The notes under the pieces were generated by a model that saw only the letters and a program-made list of their open reading frames with translations, made no database searches and had not been told where the DNA came from. From Ochromonas danica (taxonomy: Eukaryota > Sar > Chrysophyceae > Chromulinales > Chromulinaceae), in assembly GCA_015146655.1 (NCBI GenBank), contig VKHL01000132.1:16442-80441 (forward strand): a stretch of DNA of 64,000 bases, written 5' to 3'. Below are positions 7,695 to 64,000 of this stretch, piece after piece. Position 1 is the stretch's first letter; the number at the start of each line of letters is the position of its first letter. The position numbers were made by a program, and so were the translations under genes.

Positions 7695-10600
7695 CTACAT
7701 TACAGGATACGACACTTCATCAGGGTGATGTGGGCGATGGGCAGACTGATCCTCGTTCTTGTCCTTGTTATTTCTCCGTGGGTGTCCTCGTTGCTTCGGT
7801 CTTGGTGATTTCAATTGAGTTTCTACAACAGTCGATTGGTCGTTTTGTTGAGTATGTTGTGATTTGGGAGCTTTAATCTTCCGTGATGGGACCGAGGATT
7901 GACCCATACGAGGCGAAAGTTGCAACGTTGCTTGTTGCTCACTCAGGTGTGAGGATGGTGGGTGCGGTGGATGAACTTGATGTTGAGCTGGAGGAAGGGC
8001 AGGAGAACCACCAGCTTGGTTTGAGTTCAGTTTTTGAGGCTGTGGTTGTGGCTTGTTCCTTGTAGAGCGATTATTGCGCTTGGAAGTTTCTTTGCGCTGT
8101 TTCTGCTCTTGTGGCTCCTGTGACTGAGCGTTCGAGGGAAGAGAATCAATTCCAGAAGGCTGAGGCTGAGTCGGAGTTGGAGGTTGGGATTGCCGCTGTG
8201 GCTGCGGCTTTCTCTTCTTTGCAGAGCTCTCATTCTGCTTCTCAGCCTGGAGAGCCTGTTGAGCTCGCGATGGTGGATCTGGGAGAGCAATTTGCTGAGC
8301 ATCAGAAGAAGGAAAAACAGCCAGAGTAGTTTGAGGTTGCGACTGCCGCTGTAACTTGCTCTTTTTTGAAGATCTTGGGGCTGGTTTCGAGGTTTGAACA
8401 CCCAGTTGTTGCGAAGTTGAAGGTTGAGCATCCGAGGAAAGATGGTCGATTTCAGAAGGTTGAGTTTGAGTTTGAGTTTGAAGTTGGGAATGCAGTAGGG
8501 GCTCCGTCTTCTTCTTCTTTGCAGATCTCTGATTCTGCTTTTCAGCCTCCTGGCGAGCTTGCTGACCGTGCGATGACAGAACCCGCTGAGAAGGATATTG
8601 AGCATCAAAAAGAGATGGGTCAACTCGAGCAGTTTCGGGTTGGGATTGAGGCGGCTGTGGCTTGTTCTTCTTCACAGATCTTGGTGCTTGTTTCGGGGTT
8701 TGAACAGTCAGTTGTTGCGAAGTTGAAGACTTGGAAGGGGTTGTTGGTTGAATTGAATGGTTGGGTTTTGACTCAGCGCGAGAAGGGGTCAGTTGCAGAT
8801 TAACATCTGACTGATTTAAAAACTGCTGGCTTGAAAAGCCCCGGTTGCCGACTTCGACGTCGATCCAACGAGGTTTCATATGTACAATATGTCGCATGGA
8901 AGGATCTTTTATATCTTGGTCACGACCAGCAATAAGTTTAGTCAAAAGGGAACAAACTGATTGAAGATGACCATTCCTTCGACAAATTTTGCACTTAGCG
9001 AATGGGCAAAACTCCTTGACATGACCAACATGATCACAACTGCCGCATACACAAAACCCTCCTTCTGGAAGGCTCAAATTCACTTCGCAAACACAACTCC
9101 ATGCCTCTGACATGCGCGTACACCCTTCAATAGCTAAGATAGTCATACCCCGATGAATCTCTCCAATAAAGTAATTCTGATGGAAAAAACTATCAACCAC
9201 CTTTCCCAAATCTCTTTTATCAAAACAATCTTCAATTTTGATGCACCAAGGGCGTGGACGCGTGCTCCGCTTTCTAGTGAGCGCTGCTATAATAACATGT
9301 TCTGCTTCGTTTTCGCCTTCATCACTACTCGCATTCGAAGAATCATTATCATCGTCTTCGATATTATTGTCTTCGGCGTCGCTATGAACAGTATCATGAC
9401 TTCCAATATGAGCGGATGATGGAGCAGTACCGTCAAGGAGGGAGATTGTCCCCGTTAGATAACTGAAGTTTTGCTCATCCTCACAGCCAAAGTATGTAAA
9501 GAAATGAAGTAGCAATTCACCAGCCGTCACATTATCGGACGATTGGTCCAAGCTAGTTTGTTGCAGATGGAACATCTCATGACCCTCAGTGTGAAAAGCG
9601 ATCTCTTCGGAGGCCCGCTTCAATCGTTCTACCGCGTAATGTGTGAGTGAAAATTCTGGTAAGCGAAAAGCGAAATGACACTTAGCAGCATACAAAGCCA
9701 GAAGACACCACGAGAACGAACTCAGTAGGCCGCTTTTCGCATTGTTGATATAACGTCTACTTGCCCATTGTTTAACTGCCAATAACAGTTTATAGAGACG
9801 AGCATCGGCTTCACCATAGGCTTTCAACAATAAGGTATTTTGACATCCCAACTCATTCCCAACACAAAGATCAATCTGTACAGCAGAAACCATAACAATG
9901 CCAATTGGCTCAAATGTATAATGGTAGGCCTAATACGTTTCACTTACCTCCACTCCCGTTGCCACATGCTTGAAAGTAATAATAGGAATTCGAGACCAGA
10001 AAATAACGTCCATGAATTGAAAATGTCGGGACCCCCGCAGCTCACGTCTAATGTCCTTGAGAACTGAAGTTGTTTTCATGCATCGGTAATTAGGAATCAC
10101 CCCTTTGCTTCTATTATCCATAAACACAGGCACTACAGCAGATCTATCGCCATAACCTTCTGAAAAGGTCAAGCAAACATCCAAATCACTTCCTAAGTCC
10201 CCTAATGCTGAGATGCGGGATCCGAATGGATGGATGTGAGGGATGATCCCTGCATTTCTCCATATTCCATCTAACACATGTCTTAAATCAGACAAAATTC
10301 TATCATTTTGCAAAGAAATTGTAGCATTTATTTCTAATTGTCGAGCATGAAGACTGTCAAGTGACATATTTAATTGACTGAGAGCAAGTGGACAGTTCGT
10401 CGGAAGGGTAAGAAGCTGCTTGCAAAGCATTTGCTCGTGATCTTTCCAGCATTCTTGACATCTCATCAGATTTCTCAGCATTTCTGCGATAGTTGATAGG
10501 ATGTTGGAACCTTCATTAGGAAGTGGCTGAGAGTTCTTCTCTAATCTTTGCTGAATTGAGTTGAGAGCATTAATCCCCAATGGCACGATGCTTCCCGTCA

Positions 10601-35008: not shown

Positions 35009-35140
35009 AAAGTGAAGAAGTAGAAGGACATAATAGGAAATGGGAAAGTCATACTAATGTAAGGCATCAAAGTGCCTAAGTCAAAAAATAAGCACGCACA
35101 ATATAGAGAGCTTGAAATAAGACTATTTGTTAACAAATAA

Positions 35141-37843
35141 TCATAACTTAAGATCGACTCCAAGGTCAGATAAAACCTGATTGAAGGCATTCATGGTAAA
35201 TGGCTTCGACAGACTGCCATCGAAACCCATATCCATCATCGTCAGCCTCGTCTCCTCGTCATCATTTGCTGAGACTCCCAGAATCAAATGGCGCAAACCA
35301 TCGCTCCATTTACTGAAGCTCTCTCCATACTCTTGCTCGATCTGACGAAGACGCTTCGTTGCTTCTAGACCATCCATTATAGGCATGTGCAAATCCATCA
35401 AAATGCAGTCAAAGGCAGCTTGAAGCTTGGTAGCCTCATGACCTGAAACACTACCACCGGGCTCATCCGACTTCTCCAAACCAAACCTCTGATTCTCCAA
35501 CTCCCTCTGGATTATGTCCAACGCATCCGCTCCATTCTCCGCCACCGTCACCGCGAAGCCCTTCTTGCGCAATAGCATCGACGTGATCTTCACCACCGAA
35601 GGAGTATCGTCCACCAGAAGAATGCGCGGTCGAGACGAGCTGCTGCTCACATCGCCCGATGCTGCACGTAATGATGGTTGAATCGGATGTCTTGGCGAGA
35701 GAAGGCGTCGTGTGGCTCCGCCATTGCGCAACTTATCCATGATTTCTGTCATTGATATCGTCACCGCTGAAGTCGCTGGAGCACTGCCATTATTCCCTGC
35801 CACATGCTTAGGTAGTGCTGTGCTCGACGCCGACATGGATAATAGGGACTGGAGAAGCTGACGCTGCTCATCCTCTCGATAAGGAAAGCGAAACCAAAAG
35901 ATCGAACCTCGAAGGCCATCTCTTCGCTTGCTCACTCCACATTGACCTTGCAACGCTTCCAAACGCTTCGCCAATGAAAACAAGCCCAATCCCGTTCCTC
36001 CTGCTAGACGCTGTGTCTGTTTGAAAGGAGAAAACAGATCGGCCATCGCTTCTTCCGACATACCGATGCCTTCATCTTCCACTTCGATGCGCAACATCGT
36101 CACTGAACGCACTAGACAGGTGGTCTGAACTCTAGCCATAGAAAATGCATTGCGTGTAGTTATCGCATTTCTAATGTGCTCGGGGGACACATTCTCAGAC
36201 CTCATCCCTGCCTTAGCGTGGAAAGAACTTCCGCCGTTGTTGTCATTCTTCTTCTGGCTAAACACCATCGACTTACTCTGAACGCTATGAAAACCGCTAC
36301 GTTCACTCTGCCTTCGGCTGCGTCTTGACCACTCCTCCTCCTCAAAACCCTCCTCGCCTTCTTCCTCATCCTTCCCTCCTCCTTCCAATGGGTACACCTC
36401 CACTTCCTCCAAATATACACTCACATTCACACTGCCTGCATTCGAGTACTTCACGGCATTGCTCAACAGACAAAGAAGATTCTCCTGGAGCCATTGCTTG
36501 TCTGTGATGATGTGAGAGCTCACCACCTGGGGAATTGGATTCATTGTGATCGACACGCGCTGCTGGATGTCCTTCATGCAGTTCAACGGTAAAGACAACG
36601 TCGCCAATAAATCGATCGTCTCGTGCTTCGGAACCAGCTTCAAACCCTTGCTGGCTTTCGCATAGTCGATACAACGATGAATCGTCATCAACATGAAGTT
36701 ATTTGTATTTGACATGTTCTCCACACATTCCAAACACCCATCAAGCGTCGACTTCAACGAACTTAGGATGCGCTTCAAGAAAGCTACGCTCTCCGATGGA
36801 TTGCTGTCGTTCTTCTCTTCTCCTCTTCCCTCACAGCCACCACAGTCGTCCACGGTGCCTTCTGCTCGCATCACCTTTGTCTCTAACAGATCAACTCCTT
36901 CCGTCAGCATACACTTGATCGTCTCCAGACCTGTCACAAAAGATGCCAGAGGCTAAGCATCGAACACACAATCCACGGTTTAGTAAGCGCATCAATCAAC
37001 AGCAGATCAAGACAAGTCAAGCAACCACATTCAGCAGCAAACACTAGTACACCCACTCACCGTCTTCAAATCATGAGCCACATTGCCCACCATGCTGCGC
37101 ATATTCTCATCGAATTGGTTGATGTGATGAGCCTTCGACAACTCACGGGCCTCTTCATGATCTGCTTGCAGCTTCTCTTCTCGAACAATACGTTGTTGCA
37201 TGCCATACAAGAACAACAGCACCAGCGAGAAGTAATACAACAATGTCAACGTCATGGGCAAGGACTCAAGATGGATTGTCATCGCTACCAAACAACTAAA
37301 GCTGCAAATGATCATGCCCATGATCACCTTCCAATACACCAGGAAGATCTCATAGAAGACCACACAGAACAATAAAGGATAGAACATGGCTGATAGCATA
37401 GACATGGACATGAACGAAAATCTGTTATGGCTTTCGCCTTCATACCATTTTACCAAAAATACATCTTCTTCTGACAAATTGTGTGCTGCAGAATCTTGCC
37501 ATGGCACATTGTAGCAACATAGATTCGACAAGATACCCACGAAGTACAAAATACAAAATGTGAGAACTTCTTTCACATCCTTATCTACCTCTCCTCTCAT
37601 TGTCATCGATATTGAAACTTTTCTTCGGTGGCCCGCCACAGATAAGCAGTGCTTCGTGAGGGCCATGCAGGCCACAGTTTTGCAGACAGCTGCTAGAATG
37701 GTGAAGGCCAGGTGCCAGTCGCCACAGCCGCTCTTAAGCACCAAGGACATAGGATAGCAGAGATAAATGGAGAGAGGTACATCAATGAACATCAAGAGAA
37801 GGTTCAAGACACAAGATGATCGGACAGGAAAAGAAGTCTTCAT
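35141..37843 (-). CDS. Hybrid membrane histidine kinase, copy 1
   Basis: Coding blocks are 37843-37061 and 36952-35141 with a 108-bp intron, 864 residues. The N-terminal 210 residues contain about six membrane helices. The H box NVAHDLKT|PLASF is split by the intron; the acceptor TGCTTAG at 36953 restores the exact HDLKTPL motif. The ATPase domain shows the N box LLSNAVKYSN, the G1 box DEGIGM, and GGTGLGLFSLAKRLEA. The receiver has LLVDD, phospho-acceptor Asp in LMDLHMPIMDG, VSAND and SKPF, all intact. It should autophosphorylate and pass the phosphate to its own receiver; the signal is unknown. Copy 2 (42509-45184) is virtually identical, including the intron, except for the first 15 or so residues and a patch around 36120-36245. 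Confidence 0.92.
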
Positions 37844-42376: not shown

Positions 42377-42508
42377 AAAGTGAAGAAGTAGAAGGACATA
42401 ATAGGAAATGGGAAAGTCATACTAATGTAAGGCATCAAAGTGCCTAAGTCAAAAAATAAGCACGCACAATATAGAGAGCTTGAAATAAGACTATTTGTTA
42501 ACAAATAA

Positions 42509-45184
42509 TCATAACTTAAGATCGACTCCAAGGTCAGATAAAACCTGATTGAAGGCATTCATGGTAAATGGCTTCGACAGACTGCCATCGAAACCCATAT
42601 CCATCATCGTCAGCCTCGTCTCCTCGTCATCATTTGCTGAGACTCCCAGAATCAAATGGCGCAAACCATCGCTCCATTTACTGAAGCTCTCTCCATACTC
42701 TTGCTCGATCTGACGAAGACGCTTCGTTGCTTCTAGACCATCCATTATAGGCATGTGCAAATCCATCAAAATGCAGTCAAAGGCAGCTTGAAGCTTGGTA
42801 GCCTCATGACCTGAAACACTACCACCGGGCTCATCCGACTTCTCCAAACCAAACCTCTGATTCTCCAACTCCCTCTGGATTATGTCCAACGCATCCGCTC
42901 CATTCTCCGCCACCGTCACCGCGAAGCCCTTCTTGCGCAATAGCATCGACGTGATCTTCACCACCGAAGGAGTATCGTCCACCAGAAGAATGCGCGGTCG
43001 AGACGAGCTGCTGCTCACATCGCCCGATGCTGCACGTAATGATGGTTGAATCGGATGTCTTGGCGAGAGAAGGCGTCGTGTGGCTCCGCCATTGCGCAAC
43101 TTATCCATGATTTCTGTCATTGATATCGTCACCGCTGAAGTCGCTGGAGCACTGCCATTATTCCCTGCCACATGCTTAGGTAGTGCTGTGCTCGACGCCG
43201 ACATGGATAATAGGGACTGGAGAAGCTGACGCTGCTCATCCTCTCGATAAGGAAAGCGAAACCAAAAGATCGAACCTCGAAGGCCATCTCTTCGCTTGCT
43301 CACTCCACATTGACCTTGCAACGCTTCCAAACGCTTCGCCAATGAAAACAAGCCCAATCCCGTTCCTCCTGCTAGACGCTGTGTCTGTTTGAAAGGAGAA
43401 AACAGATCGGCCATCGCTTCTTCCGACATACCGATGCCTTCATCTTCCACTTCGATGCGCAACATCGTCACTGAACGCACTAGACAGGTGGGATGCACAA
43501 TAGAAACTCTAGTCATAGAAAATGCATCGCGTGTAGTTATCGCATTTCTAATGTGCTCGGGGGAAGAACTTCCGTCATTGTTGTCATTCTTCTTCTGGCT
43601 AAACACCATCGACTTACTCTGAACGCTATGAAAACCGCTACGTTCACTCTGCCTTCGGCTGCGTCTTGACCACTCCTCCTCCTCAAAACCCTCCTCGCCT
43701 TCTTCCTCATCCTTCCCTCCTCCTTCCAATGGGTACACCTCCACTTCCTCCAAATATACACTCACATTCACACTGCCTGCATTCGAGTACTTCACGGCAT
43801 TGCTCAACAGACAAAGAAGATTCTCCTGGAGCCATTGCTTGTCTGTGATGATGTGAGAGCTCACCACCTGGGGAATTGGATTCATTGTGATCGACACGCG
43901 CTGCTGGATGTCCTTCATGCAGTTCAACGGTAAAGACAACGTCGCCAATAAATCGATCGTCTCGTGCTTCGGAACCAGCTTCAAACCCTTGCTGGCTTTC
44001 GCATAGTCGATACAACGATGAATCGTCATCAACATGAAGTTATTTGTATTTGACATGTTCTCCACACATTCCAAACACCCATCAAGCGTCGACTTCAACG
44101 AACTTAGGATGCGCTTCAAGAAAGCTACGCTCTCCGATGGATTGCTGTCGTTCTTCTCTTCTCCTCTTCCCTCACAGCCACCACAGTCGTCCACGGTGCC
44201 TTCTGCTCGCATCACCTTTGTCTCTAACAGATCAACTCCTTCCGTCAGCATACACTTGATCGTCTCCAGACCTGTCACAAAAGATGCCAGAGGCTAAGCA
44301 TCGAACACACAATCCACGGTTTAGTAAGCGCATCAATCAACAGCAGATCAAGACAAGTCAAGCAACCACATTCAGCAGCAAACACTAGTACACCCACTCA
44401 CCGTCTTCAAATCATGAGCCACATTGCCCACCATGCTGCGCATATTCTCATCGAATTGGTTGATGTGATGAGCCTTCGACAACTCACGGGCCTCTTCATG
44501 ATCTGCTTGCAGCTTCTCTTCTCGAACAATACGTTGTTGCATGCCATACAAGAACAACAGCACCAGCGAGAAGTAATACAACAATGTCAACGTCATGGGC
44601 AAGGACTCAAGATGGATTGTCATCGCTACCAAACAACTAAAGCTGCAAATGATCATGCCCATGATCACCTTCCAATACACCAGGAAGATCTCATAGAAGA
44701 CCACACAGAACAATAAAGGATAGAACATGGCTGATAGCATAGACATGGACATGAACGAAAATCTGTTATGGCTTTCGCCTTCATACCATTTTACCAAAAA
44801 TACATCTTCTTCTGACAAATTGTGTGCTGCAGAATCTTGCCATGGCACATTGTAGCAACATAGATTCGACAAGATACCCACGAAGTACAAAATACAAAAT
44901 GTGAGAACTTCTTTCACATCCTTATCTACCTCTCCTCTCATTGTCATCGATATTGAAACTTTTCTTCGGTGGCCCGCCACAGATAAGCAGTGCTTCGTGA
45001 GGGCCATGCAGGCCACAGTTTTGCAGACAGCTGCTAGAATGGTGAAGGCCAGGTGCCAGTCGCCACAGCCGCTCTTAAGCACCAAGGACATAGGATAGCA
45101 GAGATAAATGGAGAGAGGTACATCAATGAACATCAAGAGAAGGTTCAAGATAGAAGATGATCCAATAGGAAAAGTTGGCTTCAT
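42509..45184 (-). CDS. Hybrid membrane histidine kinase, copy 2
   Basis: Coding blocks are 45184-44402 and 44293-42509 with a 108-bp intron, 855 residues. Domains and catalytic residues are those of copy 1 (six-helix sensor, split HDLKTPL H box, N/G boxes, receiver with LMDLHMPIMDG and SKPF). Differences are confined to the N-terminus (MKPTFPIGSSSIL against MKTSFPVRSSCVL) and a linker patch where this copy has NDGSSSPEH and SIVHPTC and lacks nine residues relative to copy 1. The rest, including the intron, reads identical. Both copies are intact, so both may be expressed. Confidence 0.92.
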
Positions 45185-55142: not shown

Positions 55143-56390
55143 TTAAATTGAGCTAACAGGTGAACTAACACGTTCAATGTTTTGAATTTGAATGAAATTT
55201 CCTATTTCTTCACTCTGCAAAAGTTTGGACATCGCCGCCTTCTCTACACTGCGCACTTGTTTCCAGGAGATCTTGAACCGCCGTCCAACCTCCTTTACCG
55301 GCTTGATACGACCATCATCCAGACCTAGACGCAGACGCAAAATATCTCTTTCAACATCATTGAGATGTGTCTGCATCATTAGCTCCATTCCTCTGTGAAG
55401 ATCCTTTCGATCAATATTTCCCATGGGAGTAGTATGGGATGATGGAATAGCATCTGCAAGTGTTCGGACTTGATTTTCTCCCTGTTTGTGACTATCTTTT
55501 TGTTGGGGACTGGTAAAGAGTAGTGTAGGATAGGATTGCATAGAGAGAACTTTCATAATATCATAATGAGATTGCCCTAAATCTGTAGCCATTTGTGAAA
55601 CAGATGGCATAGTTCCTTCCTTTTGCTTGTATTCCTTGCAATATTGCTTCACTTTACGTTGTAAAAGCAAGTATCGCGAGGGCATTTTAGCAAGATGTTT
55701 CCGCCATCGAACATATTCAGCAACAGCTTGATGGACATACCAAGTAGCATAGGTTGCAAAGCGAAAGCCTTTAGAATAATCATAGCGTGTCACGGCTCTT
55801 GCAAGACCTCTTGATCCTTCAGAAATGAGTTCCGTGTTAGGAATATTAGTAGTGCGATATCGAGAAACAATGGCAAGGACAAGCTTCAAATTGCTATTTA
55901 ATAATCGCATTTTAGAAATTTCCGCATATTTAGTCATCTTCTGCAATGTTGCAACAGTACATCCAATGGCTTTGGCCAAGTCTTCATCACTAATTGGTTC
56001 ACAAGGATCTTCTCTTTTGCATCGTAATCGTGCACGAACTTTTTCAATCGCCTGCCAAATCTTTAATGTTTTTCCTAATTGTAATTCTTGTTCCGCTGTT
56101 AGTAAAGGTTGAGCTTCAACAAAGGTAAAGAAAAGATCCAATTCAGCTTCAAACCAACGAACATTCTTATTACGGGAACGAGTTGTGAACGGATTGAAAG
56201 CTTTACGAGTCATTGCAAAGCTCATCATAATTCTTCTACCATTGATAGAGGATGGACTTTCATAAGAGAGAGGACCATTGTTAGTAATTTGTACTACAGA
56301 ATGGAAAGCTCTGGTACAAGCAAGAAAGAGAGAGACCAATTGCAAGAGGAAAAGAAATGTGGACCAAAGATGTTGCTTTCTGTGAACCAT
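55143..56390 (-). CDS. sigA-like: Plastid RNA polymerase sigma-70 factor with bipartite targeting sequence
   Basis: This is a single frame of 415 residues from ATG 56390 (an in-frame TTG at 56420 is ignored). It directs the bacterial-type plastid polymerase to promoters. The first 28 residues are a signal peptide (hydrophobic FLFLLQLVSLFLA) ending CTRA|FHS; the Phe right after the cleavage site is the hallmark of plastid proteins in algae with complex red plastids. A basic, Ser/Thr-rich transit stretch follows. The sigma core shows region 1.2 (LTAEQELQLGK), region 2 (NLKLVLAIVSRY, ELISEGSRGLARAVTRYDYSKGFRFATYATWYVHQAV), region 3 and region 4 (LNDVERDILRLRLGLDDG, helix-turn-helix VGRRFKISWKQVRSVEKAAMSKL). 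No region 1.1 is seen, as usual for plastid sigmas. Confidence 0.93.
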   Translation of the reverse strand: MVHRKQHLWSTFLFLLQLVSLFLACTRAFHSVVQITNNGPLSYESPSSINGRRIMMSFAMTRKAFNPFTTRSRNKNVRWFEAELDLFFTFVEAQPLLTAEQELQLGKTLKIWQAIEKVRARLRCKREDPCEPISDEDLAKAIGCTVATLQKMTKYAEISKMRLLNSNLKLVLAIVSRYRTTNIPNTELISEGSRGLARAVTRYDYSKGFRFATYATWYVHQAVAEYVRWRKHLAKMPSRYLLLQRKVKQYCKEYKQKEGTMPSVSQMATDLGQSHYDIMKVLSMQSYPTLLFTSPQQKDSHKQGENQVRTLADAIPSSHTTPMGNIDRKDLHRGMELMMQTHLNDVERDILRLRLGLDDGRIKPVKEVGRRFKISWKQVRSVEKAAMSKLLQSEEIGNFIQIQNIERVSSPVSSI

Positions 56391-57207
56391 ATTTGTCACT
56401 AGAATAGTTATCTTGTTCAAATTTCACTGCCACGGGATGGGAGAAGATTGGATAAGGCAGCAATAAGTCCAATCTAAAGGAATGAATGAACAATTGCTAT
56501 TGTTTCAATCACTATCTCTCTGGATAAAGAGAAGGAATATTGCTAGAAAGAATGCTTTGTCAACTAGTTAATCAAGTCAGATTTTAAATATAATCGCAAG
56601 AATAGAAGAATTTGCAACTTTTCTTGCAGGAAGATTGACAGAATCAGAATGGAAACCAAACTAGATAATTCGTCCAAAATATTACACAATTTTAATCCAC
56701 TTCAATGAATTCAATATCAAATCCAAGAATAAGACTAACTAGTAATGACACAGAATTATATTATCTTTATTTTAATTGATTTTCTATTCCTTTCATATAC
56801 CAACAGGTACAAATACGTCTCGTTGTCCTCACCGTCTCGTCTGACTGACTCTCTCTGCTCGCTGCTCACTCACTCACTCACCCTGCTGCTGCCAGCCAAA
56901 ACACACACACACAGCAGAGTTGGGAGCACAAGAGCAGCTTGACTTGAACCCGAATCATCTTCTGACGCGGCAGGATATATTGGCATTTTCGCAATTTTGA
57001 AGTTCTGGGGGGAAACGAGAAAACGAAAATTCAAAATATGCAAAGTGGCTTTTCAACTTGTTTTTTGTTATCCCACGCAAAACAATAATAGTTTATCTTC
57101 TCTCTCTCTGCTGTTCATGTCATTTCAAATTGAAAATCCTCCCTATCTCTAGTTAGATAGGACCATATTCTTCATTACGTTCTTCTTATTCTAGCTGTTA
57201 TTAAATC
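56391..57207. promoter_or_regulatory. Divergent promoter region between sigma factor and coiled-coil genes
   Basis: This 817-bp region contains a tandem ACTCACTC run (about 56867-56880) followed by CTGCTGCTGCC, and an ACACACAC tract. Similar (T)GAGTGAGT runs occur upstream of CYP51 and of the 48.1-kb gene. No TTCCATGGAA is present here. Confidence 0.35.
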
Positions 57208-59686: not shown

Positions 59687-60157
59687 ATGCTAGTGAGTGA
59701 GAATCCACCGCAAACGGCTCGAGATTTCACATCTATCGTGAACCCTTATTTTAATTGGAACATATCATGTTGGTTAGCACAATTATGGCCTAATGAGTTA
59801 GGATACAAGTACCGTTCAACATCTACTACAATGGAGATGTACGAAGGTGTACACAATGCTTACAAGAATACATCCATCAATTCAAGATCCTCGAGGCTGA
59901 TTGTCAACAAGACCGTCCCATTGCCTTTCACTTCCAAGAGGAGCCTAGGAGAGGATGAAGAAGAAGATTTACAGGCCGATTCAATCCTACCTCTGGATGC
60001 TGCCAGAGAAGCAGAGAAGAATGATTACGAAGACGATGATGAGATGGCCGTGGACAAGCATGATATCGCAGAAGAAGCAGAGGAAGAACAAAGCTTAATC
60101 GCGGCCTTTCTTCAGGCAACTTCGACAGTTTTTGAGAATACGGTAGAGGAGGATTGA
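59687..60157 (+). CDS. Small acidic protein of unknown function
   Basis: This is an ATG-initiated frame of 156 residues. The first 80 residues look globular, with Trp and Tyr (FNWNISCWLAQLWPNELGYKY). The second half is highly acidic (LGEDEEEDLQ, YEDDDEMAVD, EEAEEEQ) and ends VEED. No domain is recognised. GTGAGT occurs right after the second codon (ATG CTA), so the start may be part of a splice site of a different gene model. It may be real or a gene fragment. Confidence 0.4.
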   Translation: MLVSENPPQTARDFTSIVNPYFNWNISCWLAQLWPNELGYKYRSTSTTMEMYEGVHNAYKNTSINSRSSRLIVNKTVPLPFTSKRSLGEDEEEDLQADSILPLDAAREAEKNDYEDDDEMAVDKHDIAEEAEEEQSLIAAFLQATSTVFENTVEED

Positions 60158-61027
60158 ATGGATTGAATACAAAGCCTCTCAGTAGACGAAATAGCCATCT
60201 ATTTTACTATAAATAACTCAAATAATGATCAACAAAGATTAATAGAATAGTTGTTGCACCTCTTTTATGCATGTTGATCTTCATCTCTCTCGGCGATGGC
60301 AGCTGGAAAGTGACAGACCAGCCATACGACGATTGCATGCTCGGGTTTCAGCGATCCACAGCCCACAAAACACTTCCAATAGCAAGCCAATCTATTAATA
60401 GAACTGTTAGAATCTTAATATCAAGAAAATTGAAGAGCAATTTACCTCAAAGGACCAACAATCAATTTTTCGGATGATCCAGATCACTCGTGCAGTTCGA
60501 TAGCCACAACCACTCAATATCTCCAAATAATCTCTACGAATAAGTTAATAATACTTAACTAAGAATAGAATGACGCGGGGGATTTTCTTCTTTCGGTCTC
60601 GATCTTGCTCTTGACCCAAAGATACTTGCGAAAAGATTGCTTGGACTAGATTTCAGATTTCTCCTCTCAAAGGGAATGAATCAAAAAAAGCCCACGTCAT
60701 TCTATTCTTCAAGAAATGCTTGTTCAAATGAGCAGTCGAAGAGCTCCTATCGTTGTTTCTGTGAAGCTGGCGAACTGCACGAAAATTGCATACTTTTGGC
60801 AAAATAGTTTTGTGAGAATCTGGGATTCTGGACTGCTTTTACGCGTACGTCACTGCTTCTTCGCTTCTGGAAACTCTTTCGATCCAAAGCCTCCGTCACA
60901 ATCTATAGTCAAAGGCTTACTCTATTGCGGCTTATAAAGTGACTCATTAGGAGTTGTTGTTGTAAGGTTAAGAGAGATCACCTACAGCATCTATCAGCCT
61001 TGCGCTGTTGCTTAACACAATAGAGTT
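60158..61027. other. Intergenic region containing an imperfect inverted repeat
   Basis: Nothing coding is recognised. It holds the 19-bp inverted repeat listed separately and ends at the first higher-order repeat unit. Confidence 0.4.
60561..60709. repeat. 149-bp element with 19-bp terminal inverted repeats (possible MITE)
   Basis: AAGAATAGAATGACGcGGG (60561-60579) and the complement of CCCaCGTCATTCTATTCTT (60691-60709) match at 18 of 19 positions. The 111-bp interior has no ORF. I see no clear target-site duplication, so a miniature transposon is only one option. Confidence 0.45.
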
Positions 61028-63629
61028 GTAGCAGGAAGTTATCCCTGCTTAGTATATTACATAACTCTTAGTGTATTACATATCTCTCCTACGCACCATA
61101 CTAATAGTTCATAGTTATCTCTCCCCATGTAACACAACCATTCTAACTAATGACTACATCAACAACTGCTTCATAGCACACTTCCGCATCACTCAGTGCG
61201 CAGCTCTCGTCTCAACCTTCTTCTCATCCGAGTGCAAGACCTGCTCAACAACCTTCCGCATCCCTCAGTGCGCAGCTCTCGTCTCAACCTTCTTCTCATC
61301 CGAGTGCAAGACCTGCTCAACAACCTTCCGCATCACTCAGTCCGCAGCTCTCGTCTCAACCTTCTTCTCATCCGAGTGCAAGACCTGCTCAACAACCTTC
61401 CGCATCACTCAGTGCGCAGCTCCCGTCTCAACCTTCTTCTCATCCGAGTGCAAGACCTGCTCAACAACCTTCCGCATCACTCAGTGCGCAGCTCTCGTCT
61501 CCACCTTCTTCTCATCCGAGTGCAAGACCTGCTCAACAACCTTCCGCATCACTCAGTGCGCAGCTCTCGTCTCAACCTTCGTCTCATCCGAGTGCAAGAC
61601 CTGCTCAACAACCTTCCGCATCACTCAGTGCGCAGCTCTCGTCTCAACCTTCTTCTCACCCGAGTGCAAGACCTGCTCAACAACCTTCCGCATCACTCAG
61701 TGCGCAGCTCTCGTCTCAACCTTCTTCTCATCCGAGCGCAAGACCTGCTCAACAACCTTCCGCATCACTCAGTGCGCAGCTCTCGTCTCAACCTTCTTCT
61801 CATCCGAGTGCAAGCCCTGCTCAACAACCTTCCGCATCACTCAGTGCGCAGCTCTCGTCTCAACCTTCTTCTCATCCGAGTGCAAGACCTGCCCAACAAC
61901 CTTCCGCATCACTCAGTGCGCAGCTCTCGTCTCAACCTTCTTCTCATCCGAGTGCAAGACCTGCTCAACACCCTTCCGCATCACTCAGTGCGCAGCTCTC
62001 GTCTCAACCTTCTTCTCATCCGAGTGCAAGACCTGCTCAACAACCTTCTGTAGCAGGAAGTTATCCCTGCTTAGTATATTACATAACTCTTAGTGTATTA
62101 CATATCTCTCCTACGCACCATACTAATAGTTCATAGTTATCTCTCCCCATGTAACACAACCATTCTAACTAATGACTACATCAACAACTGCTTCATAGCA
62201 CACTTCCGCATCACTCAGTGCGCAGCTCTCGTCTCAACCTTCTTCTCATCCGAGTGCAAGACCTGCTCAACAACCTTCCGCATCCCTCAGTGCGCAGCTC
62301 TCGTCTCAACCTTCTTCTCATCCGAGTGCAAGACCTGCTCAACAACCTTCCGCATCACTCAGTCCGCAGCTCTCGTCTCAACCTTCTTCTCATCCGAGTG
62401 CAAGACCTGCTCAACAACCTTCCGCATCACTCAGTGCGCAGCTCCCGTCTCAACCTTCTTCTCATCCGAGTGCAAGACCTGCTCAACAACCTTCCGCATC
62501 ACTCAGTGCGCAGCTCTCGTCTCCACCTTCTTCTCATCCGAGTGCAAGACCTGCTCAACAACCTTCCGCATCACTCAGTGCGCAGCTCTCGTCTCAACCT
62601 TCGTCTCATCCGAGTGCAAGACCTGCTCAACAACCTTCCGCATCACTCAGTGCGCAGCTCTCGTCTCAACCTTCTTCTCACCCGAGTGCAAGACCTGCTC
62701 AACAACCTTCCGCATCACTCAGTGCGCAGCTCTCGTCTCAACCTTCTTCTCATCCGAGCGCAAGACCTGCTCAACAACCTTCCGCATCACTCAGTGCGCA
62801 GCTCTCGTCTCAACCTTCTTCTCATCCGAGTGCAAGCCCTGCTCAACAACCTTCCGCATCACTCAGTGCGCAGCTCTCGTCTCAACCTTCTTCTCATCCG
62901 AGTGCAAGACCTGCCCAACAACCTTCCGCATCACTCAGTGCGCAGCTCTCGTCTCAACCTTCTTCTCATCCGAGTGCAAGACCTGCTCAACACCCTTCCG
63001 CATCACTCAGTGCGCAGCTCTCGTCTCAACCTTCTTCTCATCCGAGTGCAAGACCTGCTCAACAACCTTCTGTAGCAGGAAGTTATCCCTGCTTAGTATA
63101 TTACATAACTCTTAGTGTATTACATATCTCTCCTACGCACCATACTAATAGTTCATAGTTATCTCTCCCCATGTAACACAACCATTCTAACTAATGACTA
63201 CATCAACAACTGCTTCATAGCACACTTCCGCATCACTCAGTGCGCAGCTCTCGTCTCAACCTTCTTCTCATCCGAGTGCAAGACCTGCTCAACAACCTTC
63301 CGCATCCCTCAGTGCGCAGCTCTCGTCTCAACCTTCTTCTCATCCGAGTGCAAGACCTGCTCAACAACCTTCCGCATCACTCAGTCCGCAGCTCTCGTCT
63401 CAACCTTCTTCTCATCCGAGTGCAAGACCTGCTCAACAACCTTCCGCATCACTCAGTGCGCAGCTCCCGTCTCAACCTTCTTCTCATCCGAGTGCAAGAC
63501 CTGCTCAACAACCTTCCGCATCACTCAGTGCGCAGCTCTCGTCTCCACCTTCTTCTCATCCGAGTGCAAGACCTGCTCAACAACCTTCCGCATCACTCAG
63601 TGCGCAGCTCTCGTCTCAACCTTCTGTAG
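61028..63629 (+). repeat. Higher-order tandem array: 1,022-bp units of a 158-bp spacer plus twelve 72-bp repeats
   Basis: Unit 1 is 61028-62049, unit 2 is 62050-63071, and unit 3 starts at 63072 and is cut short at about 63629. Each full unit has a 158-bp spacer (begins TGTAGCAGGAAGTT) and exactly twelve 72-bp copies (first copies at 61181, 62203, 63225; 12 x 72 + 158 = 1,022). The units appear identical base for base, including private substitutions. All three forward frames are open through each 72-bp block; the minus-strand frames are all closed. One forward frame encodes a Ser/Pro/Gln repeat with SSQPSSHPSARPAQQPS, like the PSSQPS-type repeats of stramenopile surface proteins, but has no ATG and stops in the spacer. 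Confidence 0.95.
61181..62044 (+). repeat. Twelve-copy 72-bp minisatellite, first block
   Basis: Copies begin at 61181, 61253, 61325 and so on every 72 bp to 61973. Copies 1 and 12 are consensus. Copies 2-11 each differ from consensus by exactly one base, at unit positions 11, 18, 27, 34, 41, 47, 53, 59, 65 and 71 respectively. Nine changes are to C and one to G. The same series recurs in the block from 62203 and, for its first five copies, in the block from 63225. Confidence 0.97.
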
Positions 63630-64000
63630 TATTGCTGGCAATACTTATTTAATTCATGCTATTTTCTCTGTCTTTTCCCTCTGTCAATGATTGGAATTCC
63701 ATGGAATTAGATGGAAATATGAAATTCCTTAAATTATATTTATGTATTTGCTTTAGTGTAGAAGAACTTCAACGTTATAATCAGAATTAATTACAGTTAA
63801 AAGAACAATCTTCCTGACTTTGCTTTCAAAGAAAATCCCTTTAAAGCGTCAAGGATTAGGGAATTCCCCGAGTCCTTAAAGATCCCTTTTTAAAATAATT
63901 AGTTCAATTTAAAATTTCTCACACTCTTTCTGGAGCTGATTTGTTTCTCTTTCTCTTGCCTTTCTTCTGTTGCAATACGTACTTTGTTCGATCATTGTGC
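63630..64000. other. Flank after the minisatellite
   Basis: AT-rich, no ORF. It starts with the small hairpin GTATTGC-tg-GCAATAC and carries the 14-bp palindrome AATTCCATGGAATT at 63695-63708. Confidence 0.4.

Follow-up and report, generated by a model that had tools for sequence, protein, structure and literature searches.

The tandem array that begins at position 61181 of this window (the whole stretch of Ochromonas danica DNA that was analyzed, 64,000 nucleotides in length) raises the question of what process could introduce one base change into each successive repeat unit and move it steadily along the unit. The array at 61181-62044 consists of twelve 72-bp copies, of which units 1 and 12 are identical and units 2-11 each have one differing base; these changes are at phases 11, 18, 27, 34, 41, 47, 53, 59, 65, and 71, in strictly rising order, and are separated by nine spacings of 79, 81, 79, and 79 followed by five of 78. 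In all of these particulars, the initial annotation of the locus proved to be exact. The units run head to tail with a period of 72 bp, within the 10-100 bp range that defines natural minisatellites. Based on the sequence and on simulation, we conclude with high confidence that the walking changes are an artefact of de Bruijn graph assembly, with a probable word length (k) of 77, and that the ordered one-letter changes are most likely not the result of a biological process.

The array is part of a larger repeat that is absent from the initial annotation. A 1022-bp block (61027-62048) is composed of a 154-bp spacer (61027-61180) with the first letters TGTAG and the array itself (61181-62048), comprising 12 units plus 4 bp. 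The left flank (60000-61026) is outside the repeated block, because the match to the copy 1022 bp downstream starts only at 61027, at the beginning of the spacer; from this point, 61027-62602 is identical to 62049-63624 with no mismatch across 1576 bp. The ten changes are private inside the block, but all are found again in an exact second copy of spacer and array (62049-63070), and the first four recur in an exact partial third copy (63071-63624). In the right flank (63625-64000), base 63625 still agrees with the consensus unit, from which the sequence departs at 63626. The copy number given by Tandem Repeats Finder for 61181-63625 is 33.6, a figure that takes in the spacers. When the whole window was searched with a 30-base stretch of the unit, allowing up to 3 mismatches, all 29 matches were inside 61206-63567, and the same stretch had no exact match in the viral_contigs and genome_contigs collections.

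The 5-mer TGTAG is present at every junction between left flank, spacer, array end, and right flank (61027-61031, 62049-62053, 63071-63075, and 63625-63629), and on inspection by eye, CAACCTTC-TGTAG is the sequence at array ends of both kinds. It might represent a target-site duplication or part of the end of an element, and the spacer-plus-array could therefore be an inserted element. The left flank also contains an inverted repeat (60561-60709) with 26-nt arms that are 85% complementary and separated by a gap of 97 nt, which resembles a small inverted-repeat element.

The spacings of the changes provide a signature of word length. If the entry to the array (61180, the last base that does not fit the unit) and the exit from it (62049) are counted as differences, there are eleven spacings of 83, 79, 81, 79, 79, 78, 78, 78, 78, 78, and 78; all eleven are 78 or greater and six, including the exit, are exactly 78. 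If units 2-11 each carried one change at an independent phase drawn uniformly, the chance of finding none of the eleven intervals below 78 would be 9.4e-14, or 6.6e-7 given the rising order, but it should be noted that the threshold of 78 was picked after the data had been seen. If a minimum spacing of 78 is required, no order of the ten changes could give a total length below the observed 869 bp; 20,000 random orders under the same minimum had a mean of 1193 bp and a lowest value of 941 bp. However, the observed order is also the shortest at minimum spacings of 70, 73, 76, and 77; the shortness is therefore another expression of the rising order and, taken alone, does not distinguish 78 from these values.

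The same word length emerges from the repeat content of the block. No 77-mer occurs twice in 61027-62048, whether this is read as linear or circular, and exactly one 76-mer does so; the longest exact repeat within the block is the 76 bp shared by 61973-62048 and 61181-61256. A 77-mer would otherwise recur for the first time at 62049, the exit base, and in copy 3 the departing base, 63626, is located 80 bp past the last change at 63546. Represented as a 77-mer graph, 60000-64000 has one merge node (at 61027, 62049, and 63071) and one fork node (61504-61580), from which the next base is either G, leading round the loop again, or T, leading out to the right flank. The region is thus a single loop, which is passed twice in full and once in part. 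The 78-bp floor, the lack of 77-mer recurrence, the exit position, and the single-loop structure support the artefact option that was among those raised in the initial annotation, and do not support its alternatives of a biological templated process or something undescribed. Its expression "a step slightly longer than the repeat" was nevertheless apt, in that the smallest step is the inferred word of 77 plus one, as opposed to the 72-bp period.

These features can be accommodated by a mechanism in which the real locus would most likely be an ordinary, near-homogeneous 72-bp minisatellite, accompanied by one or more 154-bp spacers and beyond the span of short reads, whose assembly made use of a de Bruijn graph with k = 77. 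A homogeneous array whose period of 72 is below this word length is reduced to a ring of just 72 words. Each single-base variant, whether rare but truly present or an error in reads of high depth, would form a side path off this ring and could rejoin it only once 77 unchanged bases had passed, 78 bases on and 6 phases further. A path would advance 1 phase for each plain base and 6 for each variant, so that a path making one lap with no reuse of words would encounter variants that rise strictly and are at least 78 bp apart. At most 11 variants fit between entry and exit, and ten are present. The loop would then have been written out two and a half times; loops may appear written out several times in an assembly. 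The array and spacer are probably real DNA, with copy number and variant order being products of the assembly, as perhaps are the variants themselves. Since most assemblers work with odd word lengths and 78 is even, the floor fits a graph with (k+1)-mer edges and k = 77. Odd k is a rule among assemblers, the edges of SPAdes graphs are (k+1)-mers, and 77 is a common last k in SPAdes for 150-base reads. A SPAdes-type multi-k assembly carried to k = 77 with paired or long reads would resemble the present locus in that an edge-based graph of this word length has a floor of k + 1 = 78.

Simulation indicates that the pattern can be obtained from a truth with no variants, together with read errors, if the graph is edge-based, but not from a node-based graph at k = 77. 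The simulated truth consisted of two arrays of 60 plain units plus a partial unit, from which 10,367 reads of 150 bases were generated with 0.4% errors, 70% of them toward G; random walks were made from entry to exit with no node reused, branches being chosen at random and coverage ignored. With the count threshold set at 4, edge-based graphs of k = 77 allowed 252 of 60,000 walks to be completed, with a mean of 11.4 changes; all of these contained at least two changes and had 78 as their minimum spacing, and strictly rising order held in 242. Raising the threshold to 8 reduced the completed walks to 15 of 60,000, all of which rose with a minimum spacing of 78 (mean 10.3 changes); the phases in one of these walks were 6, 14, 20, 26, 32, 38, 45, 53, 63, and 69. 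The floor moved with the word length, to 80 at k = 79 (rising in 287/300 walks at threshold 4 and 4/4 at threshold 8) and to 82 at k = 81 (217/230 and 60/60, respectively). For k = 73 and 75, two or more changes were present in only 5 of 1,200 completed walks, none of the five being strictly rising, and the walks that were printed, two for each k, wrap beyond the end of the unit. Walks in a node-based graph at k = 77 had means of 0 and 0.195 changes in two settings; with k = 55, none of 200 rose and the printed examples fall, whereas with k = 91 all 200 rose, with 3 changes. It should be recognized that the edge-based version replaced the node-based one after results had been seen, because 78 then equals k + 1 for an odd k.

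The sequence features, the single-loop graph, and the reproduction of the pattern by simulation are demonstrated directly, but we infer the identity of the assembler, its reason for retaining variant over plain branches, and the status of the variants as read errors. The variant branches may have been retained because the plain branch has 6 steps and the variant branch 78, lengths that would be too unequal for treatment as a bulge. The description of bulges in PMC6736328 is relevant here: error bulges are marked by similar lengths, and rnaSPAdes collapses only those that differ by less than 10% in length. The same description states that genome assemblers typically use coverage in bulge removal, which speaks against the survival of variant branches; an assembler that weighs coverage should favor the plain branches, contrary to the artefact interpretation. 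Alternatively, variants may have been retained if the assembler had to span the repeat with a path of a set length. It also counts against an artefact that few of the random simulated walks at k = 77 were completed, that rising walks with two or more changes were lacking at k = 73 and 75, that the node-based graph gave almost no changes at k = 77, and that an identical contig would be expected if the DNA truly had this sequence.

The account of tandem-repeat misassembly and collapse in de Bruijn graphs in PMC6868369 parallels the present case in that a repeat longer than the word length is unresolvable and a contig is one traversal of the graph, but what is described in that account is collapse and breakage, and ordered substitutions at k + 1 spacing are a feature of the present locus. 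Among the papers listed on assembly artefacts, k-mer defaults, and tandem-repeat misassembly, judged nearly all by title, none has a title that describes ordered substitutions with k + 1 spacing, and we make no claim that the pattern is unpublished. A different default k set for SPAdes (25, 33, 55, 127) is given in the relevant text of PMC12160505 and omits the value of 77 inferred for the present contig. An example of a pipeline in a chrysophyte, which has no link to this window, is that for Poteriospumella lacustris, where the portion of PMC6738136 on assembly describes SPAdes with 150-base Illumina reads and PacBio contigs.

The alternative that survives best is a sub-case of the artefact explanation and not exclusive of it: the ten variants may be genuine minority units that are scattered in a long natural array, the assembler being responsible only for their order and spacing. 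We consider this possible but rather doubtful. A strong bias toward C, to which nine of the ten changes are made (p = 4.9e-6 against random substitutions, computed after the data had been seen), is not an obvious outcome of read errors and favors real variants; none of the ten is to A or T (p = 7.4e-4 against random substitutions). The simulations pooled C and G and so have no bearing on the bias toward C. Eight of the ten changes copy the base on one side or the other (p = 0.035). A bias toward the preceding base is common in Illumina data according to the relevant section of PMC8002175, but is inconsistent and slight on HiSeq X Ten and NovaSeq; no clear dye signature is reported in that section. 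Two-color "to G" read errors were considered as a source because all ten changes are to C or G, but by reasoning, not computation, such errors occurring on both strands would not be expected to produce nine C with one G.

Additional simulations, in which variants were placed in the truth and reads had no errors, bear on the same alternative (ten settings, 240 walks each, with random choice of branches). At 0.1 changes per unit, the floor was kept in 181/240 walks with 60 copies and 157/240 with 200 copies, and among walks with two or more changes, 149/154 and 222/240, respectively, were rising, but these walks carry few changes (means of 2.0 and 4.9). At 200 copies and 0.3 changes per unit, there were 110 walks with 8-12 changes, of which 14 rose with a 78 floor, yet the only other setting to give this combination was 200 copies with 0.6 changes per unit (1/89); none of the 8 walks with 8-12 changes at 200 copies and 0.1 per unit did so. 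Linked changes, less than 78 bp apart, appeared in 162/240 and 201/240 walks at 0.3 per unit and in at least 228/240 in each of six settings at 0.6 and above, but there are none at this locus. Their absence favors rare independent errors on a deep homogeneous array over rare real variants.

We regard as very improbable the view that the walking array is real DNA, arising from a templated copying process that advances about 78 bp at a time (template switching, or rolling copying of fixed footprint, being examples), with the 1022-bp block duplicated afterward. The sequence as given does show a walking array, and exact block duplication does occur in real genomes. On this view, a copying process with a footprint of about 78 bp would have left one change in each 72-bp unit with rising phase, and the match to a 77-letter word graph would be accidental, a combination to which we give hardly any credence. 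Templated copying leaves unexplained why the exit is exactly 78 bp past the last change, why the spacings have a floor at 78 and yet no fixed value, and why no 77-mer recurs in the block and the contig forms a single 77-mer loop. Reads simulated from variant-free arrays yield a like picture with no templated copying, whereas only 1 of 120 simulated true arrays with random changes walked with the floor, and this was in the sparsest setting (60 copies, 0.1 per unit). Least credible of all is an engineered array with a marker change in each unit: one marker per unit at near-regular steps is what design might produce, but the array is in a contig with many ORFs, some having eukaryotic-type domains, design offers no obvious reason for the uneven steps of 83, 81, and 79 or for a third copy that is only partial, and the 30-base unit stretch lacks an exact match in either collection that was searched.

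Other features of the window can be considered separately from the origin of the changes. The 72-bp unit has no stop codon in any of the three frames of the + strand and at least one in each of the three frames of the − strand. ORFs of 285 and 340 residues in the array therefore arise from the lack of + strand stops in the unit, and a coding minisatellite was rejected as an interpretation because these ORFs are already accounted for in this way. A Pfam scan of 10 of the 24 listed ORFs gave matches in 8, the domains including, among others, sigma-70 factor, cytochrome P450, SNF2, WD40-type, and protein kinase. These domains point to a eukaryotic source, perhaps one with plastids. The ORF at 55143-56420 (− strand) has regions 2 and 4 of a sigma-70-type factor (Pfam) and an N terminus that appears hydrophobic by eye, in a window that is otherwise eukaryotic in appearance; its product is perhaps a plastid-targeted sigma factor. 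A 2.8-kb direct duplication (35009-37843 and 42377-45184) has 97.9% identity, including stretches of 1573 and 1115 bp that match exactly, and histidine-kinase ATPase and response-regulator domains (Pfam) are encoded by an ORF in the copy at 35009-37843. Long exact repeats in one contig suggest that long-range data were used or that graph edges were shared. An imperfect 300-bp tandem duplication (8125-8728; 72.7% identical) is inside the ORF at 7695-9893.

In arrays of this kind, long reads are needed before variants, copy number, or open frames can be relied upon. A diagnostic is suggested by the present results, based on one locus and simulation: where the period of an array is less than the assembler word k, walking substitutions whose smallest spacing is k + 1 would point to a path through a word graph and would reveal the value of k. 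If the interpretation of the walking changes as an assembly artefact holds, an apparent biological oddity is removed.
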